64,000 bases of DNA from positions 124,001-188,000 of the forward strand of contig PERI01000001.1 of the NCBI GenBank assembly GCA_002928515.1. Reading direction: 5' to 3'. The position numbers and the translations under genes were made by a program. The notes below the pieces were generated by a model that did no database searches, was not told the DNA's origin, and worked only from the letters and a program-made list of their open reading frames with translations. Below, piece by piece: positions 24,607 to 27,601 of this stretch (position 1 is its first letter; every line of letters starts with the position of its first letter). The DNA comes from Hyphomicrobium sp. GTDB lineage: Bacteria; Pseudomonadota; Alphaproteobacteria; Rhizobiales; Hyphomicrobiaceae.

Positions 24607-25643
24607 CAGGCATCTCCGCTCAACGCCCGGACAATGGCGTTGCGATCAAGGCCCTTTTGGCCGATGACGACGAGGCGTCCGATGCGCGGCTCACTCGGCG
24701 TCCAAGCACGTTCGTAGCGCGTTTCGACGCGCTGGCCGACGCCTTGCAGAAGGAGGCGCATCGGTTTGCCATCGACGGCGGCGTAACCTTTGACGCGAAG
24801 AACATCGTGGTCAGTGGCGATTTGCTTGGCGCGCGTGGCTAGGTCAGTTGGTGAGGAGAGTGTTGGAATTTCGACAATGAAACTCTCGAAATCGTCGTGG
24901 TCGTGGCCTTCTTCGCCGTCATGGTGCGAGGGGCGCGCTGCGAGATCGTCTTCGGCTGCGGCTGACAGGCCAAGCAATACGCCTGCGGGTATTTTGCCTT
25001 CGCGGGTGGCGATGATTTTGATTTCTCGCGGGATATTGGCTTTGATGTCGGAGGAAATTTGAGTGGCCTCGTCCGATGTCATCAGGTCGGTTTTGTTGAG
25101 GACGACGAGGTCGGCGCACAATAGTTGATCTTCGTAAACTTCTTCGAGCGGATTTTCGTGATCGACCGATGGGTCGGCTGCGCGTTGCGCTGCGAGTTTA
25201 ACTGGATCGTCGGCGAAGCGACCGGCGAGGACTGCTGGACCATCGACGACTGTGACGACTCCATCGACGGTCACGCGCGAACGAATGTCGGGCCATTCGA
25301 AGGCTTTGACGAGTGGCTTTGGCAACGCCAGGCCGGATGTTTCGATGATGATGTGCTCGGGCTGCGGCGAGCGTGACAGCAGCGCTTCGAGTGTCGGGAT
25401 GAAATCATCAGCGACGGTGCAGCAGATGCAACCGTTGGTGAGTTCGACGATATTTTCTTCCGGACAGCTTTCGATGCCGCACGATTTCAGAATTGAACCA
25501 TCGACGCCGACATCGCCGAACTCATTGACAATGAGAGCAAGGCGGCGGCCTTCGGCATTTTCTAGAACGTGGCGCACGAGCGTGGTTTTTCCAGCGCCGA
25601 GAAAGCCTGTGATGATGGTGACAGGGACTTTACGCGATGTCAT
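24606..25643 (-). CDS. cobW: CobW, G3E-family GTPase / metal chaperone
   Basis: A GTPase thought to deliver cobalt to the cobaltochelatase. Walker A GFLGAGKT (13-20), the metal-binding GCICC motif before residue 90, VLNKTDL (G4) and a His/Asp-rich loop HHDGEEGHDHDD between the GTPase and C-terminal domains. 345 residues. The ATG at 25643 is fixed by the overlap with the DUF1636 gene (ATGA). It is directly followed by cobN, which supports the chaperone role. Confidence 0.95.
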   Translation of the reverse strand: MTSRKVPVTIITGFLGAGKTTLVRHVLENAEGRRLALIVNEFGDVGVDGSILKSCGIESCPEENIVELTNGCICCTVADDFIPTLEALLSRSPQPEHIIIETSGLALPKPLVKAFEWPDIRSRVTVDGVVTVVDGPAVLAGRFADDPVKLAAQRAADPSVDHENPLEEVYEDQLLCADLVVLNKTDLMTSDEATQISSDIKANIPREIKIIATREGKIPAGVLLGLSAAAEDDLAARPSHHDGEEGHDHDDFESFIVEIPTLSSPTDLATRAKQIATDHDVLRVKGYAAVDGKPMRLLLQGVGQRVETRYERAWTPSEPRIGRLVVIGQKGLDRNAIVRALSGDA

Positions 25644-26062
25644 TCGGCAGGCTCCAAATGGTGGGTCGGTAAGGGTGGGATGCGCGCGACGACATTCTTG
25701 CGGCCGATCAGAGGGCGGTCGCGCCAAGCTGGGACGCCGTCAGGGCGTTCGCTGTGTTGAGTAGCGAATATCAAAACGTCGCGTGCGTCTTTTTCAGGGT
25801 CTAGGCGGCCAACGACATAGGTCCATTTTCCGGCAGCTGTGATGGCAACCGTGCAGCCAGCGGTGCAGTTGGACAAACATTCAACGGCGACAATTTTTAC
25901 ACTGGTGGACCTGTCATCGTCGGCGGCTTGGGATATCGCATTGGCCAGCAGCGCACCGTGGCGAGACACGCCATCGGGCAGTGTCTCGCCTTCGCGGCGG
26001 CACGTTGTGCAGACGAACAACGTCGTTACGGGTGTGTCAGGCAACATGTCAGGCGGTGCCAT
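25640..26062 (-). CDS. DUF1636 metal-binding protein, cobW-associated
   Basis: 140 residues. The pattern FVCTTCRREGE near the N-terminus and CLSNCTAGC in the middle gives five cysteines spaced as in thioredoxin-like [2Fe-2S] ferredoxins; this is the DUF1636 signature. DUF1636 genes are found beside cobW in many alphaproteobacteria, and a role in cobalt handling or electron delivery in B12 synthesis is inference only. ATG 26062 has GAAGG 8 nt upstream; a TTG at 26083 is possible. It lies 30 bp after hupE and overlaps cobW by 4 nt. Confidence 0.82.
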   Translation of the reverse strand: MAPPDMLPDTPVTTLFVCTTCRREGETLPDGVSRHGALLANAISQAADDDRSTSVKIVAVECLSNCTAGCTVAITAAGKWTYVVGRLDPEKDARDVLIFATQHSERPDGVPAWRDRPLIGRKNVVARIPPLPTHHLEPAE

Positions 26063-26092
26063 CGTGTTGACCTTCAATGACAACAGACATTT

Positions 26093-26728
26093 TTACGCGA
26101 CAAAGCCGGTAGCGCCTGCCGTGAAGTAAGCGCCCACTAGAGCAATAACTGCACCGGCAGCCATGATCGCTTTAGGAGCCAGTTCGACACTGCGATCACG
26201 AACCGTCACTGTCAGATAATAGGCTGCCAGTGCAATCGCTGATTGCACAACGGCGAGGCCGGCCAAATAAGCGTAGAGCGGTGTCGGTTCGGCGCCAATG
26301 ATCGATTCACCGAGCGCATAGCCATGAACAATTCCGGCCGCAGCAAAAAGTAACGCGGTCGGAATTGTGCCGAGCGACAGACGTGTTGCAATCAGAATGC
26401 CGATCACGGCCGTCGATAAAGCAACGAGCAGTTCGCCGTAAGGTAAGTCGAAACTCGCCAGATGAATGGCGACGCCTGCGAGCATTGCCAGCACAAACGC
26501 GAAGACTGTTTTCGGACCTGCGCCAATCAGAGCGGCCAAAATGCCGACGCCAACAATCGCTGCAAGGTGATCGAGACCTAAGATCGGATGGCCAAGGCCT
26601 GACAGCAGACCGTGTTCGAACGATGTGGGCATCTCGCCACCGGTCGGGTGATGGGCGAAAGCAGGTGCAGCCATGAGGAGTGAGAATAAGACAGTTCCCG
26701 CACTATGCGAGACGCGAGTGGCCTTCAT
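26093..26728 (-). CDS. hupE: HupE/UreJ family cobalt transporter
   Basis: Inner-membrane metal permease. Here it is the first gene after a cobalamin riboswitch, which points to cobalt rather than nickel. The N-terminal signal peptide ends near AFA-HHPTGG. The metal-site motif HPILGLDHLAAIVGVG follows at about residues 47-62, and a second conserved His lies in AAGIVHGYALGE. Six hydrophobic helices can be counted. 211 residues. ATG 26728 has GGAG (RNA sense, 26735-26738) six bases upstream, and that Shine-Dalgarno is itself part of an inverted-repeat system described under the riboswitch. Confidence 0.92.
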   Translation of the reverse strand: MKATRVSHSAGTVLFSLLMAAPAFAHHPTGGEMPTSFEHGLLSGLGHPILGLDHLAAIVGVGILAALIGAGPKTVFAFVLAMLAGVAIHLASFDLPYGELLVALSTAVIGILIATRLSLGTIPTALLFAAAGIVHGYALGESIIGAEPTPLYAYLAGLAVVQSAIALAAYYLTVTVRDRSVELAPKAIMAAGAVIALVGAYFTAGATGFVA

Positions 26729-26734
26729 TTTAGT

Positions 26735-26852
26735 CTCCGTCGGTTCGTGGATCGTGATGATCCCATGCACGCCGCTTCCGACGGATTCCAACCTTGCGGG
26801 TGGACCAAATACTATCCTCCGGAAGACCCCGTCCGTCGGATCGGAAAGCGGC
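26735..26852 (-). promoter_or_regulatory. Riboswitch expression platform covering the hupE Shine-Dalgarno
   Basis: Three elements lie between the aptamer and hupE (plus-strand sequence given). A: TCCGTCGGA (26832-26840) with AGCGGC (26847-26852). B: GCCGCT (26771-26776) with TCCGACGGA (26777-26785). C: TCCGTCGG (26736-26743). B is complementary to A over 15 bp, with a 6-nt bulge, and to C over 8 bp, so A-B and B-C exclude each other. C contains the GGA of the hupE Shine-Dalgarno. B-C pairing would block translation and A-B pairing would free it. The complementarity is seen directly; the switching mechanism is inferred. Confidence 0.6.
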
Positions 26853-26858
26853 TACGTT

Positions 26859-27016
26859 TGACGGCAGGTCTCCTGGCTCGCGGGTCAGTGCATTGGGCTA
26901 CCTTCCCAGGCTTGCGCCCAGTGGTGTCTTGGCCTTTTGCTCGCCGCTTACAGTTGCGGGGGCAGCTGCGGGGTATTCACCGCATTCCCATTGAACCCTC
27001 TTGCGAGGGACCGTCA
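26859..27016 (-). ncRNA. Cobalamin riboswitch aptamer
   Basis: Read on the minus strand it carries the conserved core of AdoCbl riboswitches: GGTTCAATGGGAATGCGG, then CCGCAGCTGCCCCCGCAACT, GTAAGCGG, the CCACTGG segment, GGGAAGG, and AGCCAGGAGACCTGCCGTC, which is the 3' B12 box. The outer P1 stem pairs TGACGG at the 5' end (27011-27016) with CCGTCA at the 3' end (26859-26864). It heads the hupE-DUF1636-cobW-cobN-cobGHIJ operon, which is the expected target: B12 represses cobalt uptake and synthesis. Confidence 0.96.
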
Positions 27017-27023
27017 CCCCAAC

Positions 27024-27051
27024 CGATAAGTGACGGTGTATGCTCCGTCAA
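27024..27051 (-). promoter_or_regulatory. Putative promoter of the riboswitch-hupE-cob operon
   Basis: On the minus strand, TTGACG (27046-27051) and TTATCG (27024-27029) are 16 bp apart, which would place the transcription start about 27017, exactly at the first base of aptamer P1. The -35 match is good and the -10 is weak. The sequence also sits within 60 bp of the divergent cobP start. Confidence 0.4.
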
Positions 27052-27076
27052 TCGCAAAGCACATGTTAGACCCATC

Positions 27077-27601
27077 ATGCCCAGCCCATATCAGCCTCGG
27101 TTAACTCTTGTACTCGGCGGGGCGCGTTCGGGCAAAAGTCTGCACGCCGAAGGGCTTGTGACGGCTGTGCCTGGTCCGTGGGTGTATATGGCAACGGCTG
27201 AGGGTTTGGACGGGGAGATGACCAGCCGAATTGCCGCGCATCGCGGGCGTCGCGGCGCAGGCTGGCAGACTGTTGAAGCGCCGTTAGATTTGGCTGGGGC
27301 ATTGCGCGCTGTGCCAATGGGGCAGGCTGTATTGGTCGATTGCTTGACGCTGTGGTTGTCGAACGTGATGCTGGGCGGGCGTGATGTGCCAGCAGCGATC
27401 GATGAATTGGTTGATGGGCTGATGGCTATCGGTGGTCCGTGCGTCTTGGTGTCGAACGAAGTCGGGCTTGGGATCGTCCCGGATAATGCACTGGCGCGCG
27501 CGTTTCGCGATGAGGCCGGGCGGCTGAACCAACGTGTTGCGGCATGTGCCGATCGGGTAGTGTTCGTTGCTGCTGGGCTTCCGATGGTTTTGAAAGGTTG
27601 A
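27077..27601 (+). CDS. cobP: Bifunctional adenosylcobinamide kinase / guanylyltransferase CobP
   Basis: Phosphorylates adenosylcobinamide and transfers GMP to make AdoCbi-GDP for nucleotide-loop assembly. Walker A is GGARSGKS (residues 14-21); VDCLTLWLSNVML is the second conserved block and SNEVGLGIVPDNALARAFRDEAG the third. 174 residues, normal. Start is ATG 27077; the open frame extends far upstream through the riboswitch antisense, without family support. It opens a plus-strand run cobP-cobO-cobQ, diverging from the riboswitch. Confidence 0.94.
   Translation: MPSPYQPRLTLVLGGARSGKSLHAEGLVTAVPGPWVYMATAEGLDGEMTSRIAAHRGRRGAGWQTVEAPLDLAGALRAVPMGQAVLVDCLTLWLSNVMLGGRDVPAAIDELVDGLMAIGGPCVLVSNEVGLGIVPDNALARAFRDEAGRLNQRVAACADRVVFVAAGLPMVLKG

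Follow-up and report, generated by a model that had tools for sequence, protein, structure and literature searches.

The leader of hupE in Hyphomicrobium sp. lies behind a cobalamin riboswitch aptamer and carries one 8-mer twice, with its complement between the two copies. This arrangement raises the question of which of the possible pairings hide and release the Shine-Dalgarno sequence (SD) and whether the coenzyme turns the gene on or off. The locus was analyzed within the window (the whole stretch of 64,000 nucleotides under study), and its leader was compared with those of related genes. We consider it likely, with a probability of about 0.78, that the leader contains a class I-type cobalamin riboswitch that turns off hupE translation when the coenzyme is bound, through a relay of the btuB type. 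Sequence comparison supports four parts of this reading (Table 1): the aptamer, a P13 hairpin whose loop is complementary to L5, an 8-bp helix between anti-SD and SD, and an arm 5′ of P13 that pairs 3′ of the anti-SD. We infer the ligand, the sign of the response, the order of folding, and cobalt as the substrate.

Table 1. Features of the hupE leader (window coordinates)
Feature	Position	Strand	Basis
Cobalamin riboswitch aptamer	26846..27030	-	RF00174 full-length match, 130.2 bits (gathering threshold, 31.5)
L5, CCCCG, proposed kissing partner of L13	26957..26961	-	Loop position from Rfam alignment
Antisequester arm, GCCGCUU	26846..26852	-	Pairs with 26777-26771; comparative support
P13 hairpin, AUCC-GA-CGGA [CGGGGUCU] UCCG-GA-GGAU	26814..26841	-	Fold, -11.9 kcal/mol
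L13, CGGGG, P13 loop	26827..26831	-	Sequence; complementary to L5
Anti-SD, UCCGUCGG	26778..26785	-	8 bp with 26743-26736
Arm partner, AAGCGGC, directly 3′ of the anti-SD	26771..26777	-	Sequence and comparison
Small hairpin between anti-SD and SD, GGAUC-AUCAC-GAUCC	26749..26763	-	Sequence; present in predicted SD-free folds
Downstream copy, CCGACGGA plus G, with the SD GGAG (26738-26735)	26735..26743	-	Sequence
hupE, HupE/UreJ family protein, 211 aa	26093..26728	-	PF04955, 119.1 bits (cutoff, 23)

hupE heads a run of cobalt and cobalamin genes

The leader is on the minus strand, before the hupE ATG at 26728. The aptamer match covers positions 1 to 189 of the 189-position Rfam model. The RNA range proposed in an earlier note on this DNA, 27016 to 26728, needs correction at its 5′ end, since the Rfam match begins at 27030 and a start at 27016 cuts the 5′ strand of P2. 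hupE is the first gene of a run for cobalt uptake and cobalamin synthesis: close to its 3′ side are a DUF1636 gene, cobW, and cobN, followed by a sulfite reductase family gene, which we take to be cobG-like, and a precorrin-8X methylmutase gene. Based on the riboswitch and the cob genes, HupE is probably an importer of cobalt rather than nickel. The protein contains, in the form HPILGLDH, the motif HPXXGXDH, which the cited passage gives as the HupE/UreJ signature (PMC7689651).

The DUF1636 protein encoded between hupE and cobW (25640-26083, minus strand) has weak similarity to NCBIfam 2Fe-2S ferredoxins (E value, 7.4e-5; 23.3 bits, below the cutoff of 150) and is possibly an iron-sulfur protein of cobalt handling. 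Upstream of the leader, cobU diverges from an ATG at 27077. Because only 46 bases (27031-27076) separate its start codon from the 5′ end of the aptamer, the promoter of hupE is likely to extend into the beginning of cobU; a search for sigma-70-like sites gave no match.

Control could also be exerted before translation, if B12 binding ended transcription early, by Rho-dependent or intrinsic termination, and the SD pairing were secondary. Untranslated leaders can expose Rho sites. A scan of the leader revealed nothing resembling an intrinsic terminator in the stretch from the aptamer to hupE. The sole match (26712-26696) lies inside hupE and is at chance level (1 found versus 0.6 in shuffles), and the pairing of SD and anti-SD described below is leader specific, which makes early ending quite improbable. 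A 13-codon open reading frame (ORF) that overlaps the hupE ATG as AUGA was taken as a chance occurrence; the ORFs in other hupE leaders are scattered, without a common pattern.

The repeats and the probable expression platform

As the earlier note had described, the 8-mer TCCGTCGG occurs on the plus strand at 26736-26743 and 26832-26839 and on the minus strand at 26778-26785. In the RNA sense, CCGACGGA stands at 26839-26832 and 26743-26736, with its complement at 26785-26778. The bare count of the 8-mer over the window is ordinary (4 found versus 2.6 expected from shuffles). A triple of this kind, with the complement placed between two direct copies, arose in 5 of 20,000 dinucleotide shuffles of the leader (119 nt). 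Of 6,390 stretches of 119 nt, taken in steps of 20 from both strands of the window, 2 contained one, and both are the hupE leader locus. The 8-mer triple is the expression platform of the cobalamin riboswitch.

The downstream copy does hold the hupE SD, overlapping GGAG six bases 5′ of the ATG. The longer stem drawn for the upstream copy (15 bp with a 6-nt bulge) can be formed as well: GCCGCTT (26852-26846) pairs with AAGCGGC (26777-26771), followed by the bulge at 26845-26840 and then by the 8-mer pair. The third leg of the predicted competition, in which the arm would also pair with the aptamer, has the required letters (GCCGCT, 26852-26847; AGCGGC, 26948-26943), but the pairing is poorly kept: a single leader of the 15 has all 6 pairs, whereas 7 leaders have 5, 1 has 4, and 6 have 3. 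This leg was rejected on these counts, and in the Rfam alignment AGCGGC is part of one of the regular helix strands of the aptamer. Of the proposed translational control by B12 through a three-way competition, the riboswitch on hupE, the leader without sign of a terminator, and the two partners of the anti-SD are retained, whereas the third leg is not.

Leaders of related hupE genes and predicted masking of the SD

HupE homologs were collected from 62 loci of named genomes and from further genomes. A B12 box was present within about 600 nt upstream in 40 of 148 loci with a HupE match; at L064, the fuzzy box had matched by chance. Dropping L093 (the window again) and L161 (the same leader as L136) left 38 leaders, 29 of them long, with 124 to 162 nt between box and start, and 9 short, with 66 to 84 nt. 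In the short leaders, the SD lies in or right after a hairpin. Three of these (L126, L128, and L129) have the SD CGGAGGG in the loop of a hairpin behind the aptamer, an env8-like arrangement. This looks like the switch in a direct form, again on hupE. HupE is not always under a cobalamin riboswitch: in an Rfam scan of boxless loci, 17 of 19 were without a cobalamin aptamer, and in the other 2 (L007 and L010) the aptamer was over 1 kb upstream of the match.

Pairing with the SD was compared between own and permuted platforms in 20 of the 29 long leaders, with near-copies left out. Summed over these leaders within a fixed search region (a variant with the zone chosen by SD pairing is circular), own platforms reached -284.5 kcal/mol versus -224.2 kcal/mol for permuted ones (standard deviation, 11.7; z = -5.14), and none of 5,000 permutations was as good. 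The signal belongs to the sum, as not each leader is good alone; the window ranks 2nd, L121 10th, and L147 17th. The SD differs between groups (GACGGAG, CGGGAG, and GAAGGGG), and the complement follows. The SD/anti-SD core shows almost no variation across the 15-leader alignment and is neutral there; in alignment A2, the row for L120 is misaligned at the SD and was counted as unpaired there. The sequence comparison thus supports the view that the SD can be masked by leader-specific pairing with the upstream anti-SD.

A P13 hairpin with a loop complementary to L5

The platform as drawn in the earlier note missed the P13 hairpin and the complementarity of its loop to L5. P13 stands between the aptamer and the anti-SD, and its 5′ side makes up most of the upstream 8-mer (26839-26832). 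Both strands of P13 vary at 3 of its 8 pairs in the 15-leader alignment; its covariation score was matched in 0 of 500 shuffles, with a slide of -2 coming near (0.093 versus 0.095). L5 and L13 are complementary at 5 of 5 pairs in all 15 aligned leaders and are invariant, hence without covariation. The likeness of L13 to the SD of its own leader versus those of others was null over 20 leaders (P = 0.40) and marginal in group I (P = 0.049), whose leaders include close relatives. Pairing of L13 with the anti-SD was likewise null over 20 leaders (P = 0.20), with P = 0.010 in group I.

The arm as a candidate upstream partner

The anti-SD had been given mutually exclusive partners, and it can indeed pair either with the SD or upstream. 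On the upstream side, relatives repeat the 7-bp arm helix (26852-26846 paired to 26777-26771) and not the 8-bp copy. In the 15 leaders, 83.8% of the cells of the arm helix are paired, and 3 of its 7 pairs are changed on both sides. The corresponding figure for the 8-bp helix is 60.5%, with no both-side changes; the 4 upper pairs, which use the P13 5′ strand, are kept in 13 to 15 of the 15 leaders and the 4 lower pairs in 2 to 8. Of the covariation among relatives that was proposed earlier as a check, both-side changes are present in the arm helix and absent from the 8-bp copy, and the SD core is neutral. As half of it is not conserved, the upstream 8-mer was rejected as a conserved partner of the anti-SD.

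The whole antisequester structure exceeded all 500 shuffles in cells paired and in covariation score, a score (0.130) that one slid control matched (0.138 at +1). Own arms paired better than permuted ones in 7 group I leaders (P = 0.003) and in all 20 leaders (P = 0.024). A covariance model that includes the P13 and sequester pairs and no arm pairs was run on 397 and 385 genomes, and the arm test was extended to its matches at fetched loci rather than to every match: 77 loci were read, yielding 75 leaders, of which 35 were nonredundant. One of the leaders (L012) is outside group I. The arm pairing had a P value of 0.008 over this set, which mixes mechanisms and relatives, such that the P values are guides. 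The arm partner lies 52 to 59 nt behind L13 in 11 of the 35 leaders, 7 of the 35 rank 30th or worse, and contiguous arm helices of 14, 11, and 11 bp are present in L220, L245, and L254, respectively. Over 20 leaders, a coarse test that set everything upstream against everything downstream gave a null result (P = 0.28); RNAduplex energies of whole regions versus shuffles are uninformative, as long looped duplexes dominate them. Overall, the comparison lends moderate support to an upstream arm that pairs just 3′ of the anti-SD. An extra P1 candidate (CGGUU/AGCCG) that would compete with the arm was seen by eye.

These results bear on whether the repeats are incidental, the identity of the 8-mers arising from separate constraints on P13 and the SD, with no antisequester at all. 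Such an origin would fit an upstream copy that is mostly the 5′ strand of P13, the null coarse test, and a platform of ordinary folding stability (z = -0.36, with 76 of 200 shuffles reaching as low an energy). Given the rarity of the triple in shuffles, the arm pairing tests, and the contiguous arm helices, however, we regard it as very improbable.

Predicted folds and the proposed relay

Folding energies, in which kissing is not included, were computed for three stretches. For 26855-26716, the best fold contains the sequester helix (-47.4 kcal/mol), against -46.1 kcal/mol for the best one that leaves the downstream copy unpaired; for the two longer stretches, the sequestered and free values are -56.3 versus -56.4 and -116.1 versus -116.6 kcal/mol, such that SD-hidden and SD-free forms differ little in predicted energy. 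In the overall best folds of the longer stretches (-58.8 and -118.5 kcal/mol), the arm helix is formed and the SD is partly paired elsewhere; the sequester helix is absent, and the SD is not entirely free. The predicted ensemble assigns probabilities of 0.54 to 0.99 to the first five arm pairs and 0.18 to 0.68 to the last two, with the 8-bp upstream part a minor conformer (0.04 to 0.07). Forming P13 with the SD free costs 1.5 kcal/mol, and P13 therefore does not strictly exclude the arm helix.

A switch working exactly as first drawn, with the upstream 8-mer as the antisequester strand and the arm also pairing with AGCGGC of the aptamer, is unlikely in this light. All of its pairings exist in the sequence, the arm and 8-mer together amount to -22.3 kcal/mol as a bare helix, and the upper half of the 8-mer helix is well kept. 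Nevertheless, in all three stretches this form is 2.2 kcal/mol less stable than the best SD-free fold, its 8-bp part occupies 4 to 7% of the predicted ensemble, and neither the lower half of the 8-mer helix nor the third leg, complete in a single leader, is maintained among relatives.

In the btuB-type relay that we favor, high B12 would lead to L5-L13 kissing and a held P13, making the P13 5′ strand, L13, and the arm less available; the anti-SD would then fold onto the SD, ribosomes could not load, and HupE would not be made. At low B12, the arm, aided by the P13 5′ strand or L13, would capture the anti-SD segment during transcription, before the SD exists, such that the SD would stay open and HupE would be made. 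The B12-bound state should thus be the SD-hidden, OFF state, a sign predicted by analogy, because published L5-L13 kissing promotes the ribosome binding site (RBS) hairpin and because of the anti-RBS exchange in btuB. The strictness with which P13 and the arm helix exclude each other is the least certain element.

The precedents come from passages on related switches. Kissing of L5 and L13 in corrinoid riboswitches is described there as holding P13 and promoting the RBS hairpin, with RBS control in btuB (PMC10653944); it is also described with the expression platform in the env8 hydroxocobalamin riboswitch (PMC10907184), and the btuB anti-RBS is said to swap between the RBS and an anti-anti-RBS (PMC7689651). 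As far as these passages go, the hupE leader would resemble Escherichia coli btuB, compared by description rather than by sequence, as a translational OFF switch with five contiguous L5-L13 pairs, a held P13, and anti-RBS exchange (PMC10653944, PMC7689651). It differs in the gene controlled and in its putative anti-anti-SD, formed by the P2-P13 arm together with P13/L13 nucleotides. With env8, it shares L5-L13 kissing with the platform, but the env8 RBS is described as lying inside the P13 loop itself, whereas the hupE SD of the window is elsewhere (PMC10907184). In the metE corrinoid riboswitch of P. megaterium, kissing likewise holds P13, and when P13 is unheld, one of its sides pairs with the strand otherwise needed to complete the OFF hairpin; there, according to the cited passage, a transcriptional terminator and the 3′ side of P13 are involved, in contrast to the SD and the 5′ side here (PMC10653944). 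Cyanobacterial hupE, in another phylum, is a HupE cobalt transporter gene under a B12 riboswitch, for which the cited passage gives no platform mechanism (PMC7689651).

Both the btuB type of relay and HupE under B12 riboswitches are thus already on record in the cited passage (PMC7689651), and the mechanism of the hupE leader is most likely the published btuB-type relay acting on an alphaproteobacterial hupE. How a bound corrinoid aptamer leads to a hidden RBS or a terminator is, according to one source, not known in general (PMC10653944). In the hupE leader, the competing helices can be read from the sequence and are backed by comparison, and the switch has natural variants (short, long, and upstream ORF [uORF] coupled) on the same gene or aptamer; single compensating changes would therefore test the relay directly. 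If the relay is as proposed, B12 stops cobalt uptake at the first gene of the run that uses this cobalt.

Other platforms behind the same aptamer lineage

A HupE/UreJ relative is present in 13 of 21 congeners, with a best E value of 2.8e-19, versus 2.8e-124 for the window's own. In 15 of the 21, the aptamer lies directly before cobW and has another platform, in which P13 is followed at once by AAAGG and an ATG. In 12 of the 15 leaders (L065, L066, L068, L073-L078, L085, L208, and L209; about 60 nt behind the B12 box), the uORF that begins there has 23 to 49 codons, with five different lengths, and its end overlaps the cobW start as AUGA; the other 3 (L072, L079, and L090) have a 14-codon ORF with a stop upstream of cobW. 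With the frame fitted, a shuffled stretch stays open in 17 to 52% of cases per leader. Because open frames are common in shuffles and the leaders are related, support for the uORF comes from the frame repeated across lengths. The pattern suggests that the congener riboswitch acts on a uORF coupled to cobW, an arrangement resembling the ppe2 switch of M. tuberculosis, where, in the cited passage, a uORF with an AUGA overlap is required for expression (PMC11260477).

In other genera of the family (L196, L198, L202, L203, L205, and L207), another gene starts just behind P13; the one tested encodes CbtB (PF09489), and DUF1636 is present in 5 of these 6 loci. The aptamer of the window clusters with the congener cobW aptamers with support of 98/93 in one tree and 91/92 in a second. 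The second tree was built without the long branches L122, L145, and L147 and drew on 11 of the 15 cobW leaders; of 13 cbt-type loci tried, 4 were included, upstream sequence being too short in the others, and L203 is a long branch of unsure place. The aptamer lineage accordingly precedes hupE-DUF1636-cobW in the window (27030-24606), uORF-cobW in congeners (L065-L090), and a CbtB-type gene before cobW (L196-L207). The HupE and DUF1636 proteins of the window are nearest L108 and L136 among riboswitch-bearing loci. Because the aptamer and HupE/DUF1636 group differently, the expression platform and the first gene, here the transporter, may have been exchanged as a unit while the aptamer stayed in place; the pattern could also reflect loss or gene conversion.

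Joining these observations, we tentatively entertain a wider reading, possible rather than probable. The alphaproteobacterial P2-P13 strand would be a recurrent, sequence-variable switching strand, and the L13 CGGGG a decoy SD that alternates between L5 and the anti-SD. Platforms would travel with the transporter gene, not with the aptamer, such that before cobW one aptamer lineage would have the hupE platform here, a CbtB-type one in other genera, and a stripped one in congeners, whose sole product would be the short cobW-coupled ORF, possibly what is left of cbtB.

The platform model also matches the second cobalamin riboswitch of the same genome (L002:1501-3144, contig 9) at 70.8 bits, with GCUCCGUCA and UGACGGAGC around the SD and GACCGAUU and GAUCGGUU as the arm pair. 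This riboswitch precedes an ORF of up to 508 aa without a Pfam or NCBIfam match; the product has a signal-peptide-like start and gives a porin-like impression.
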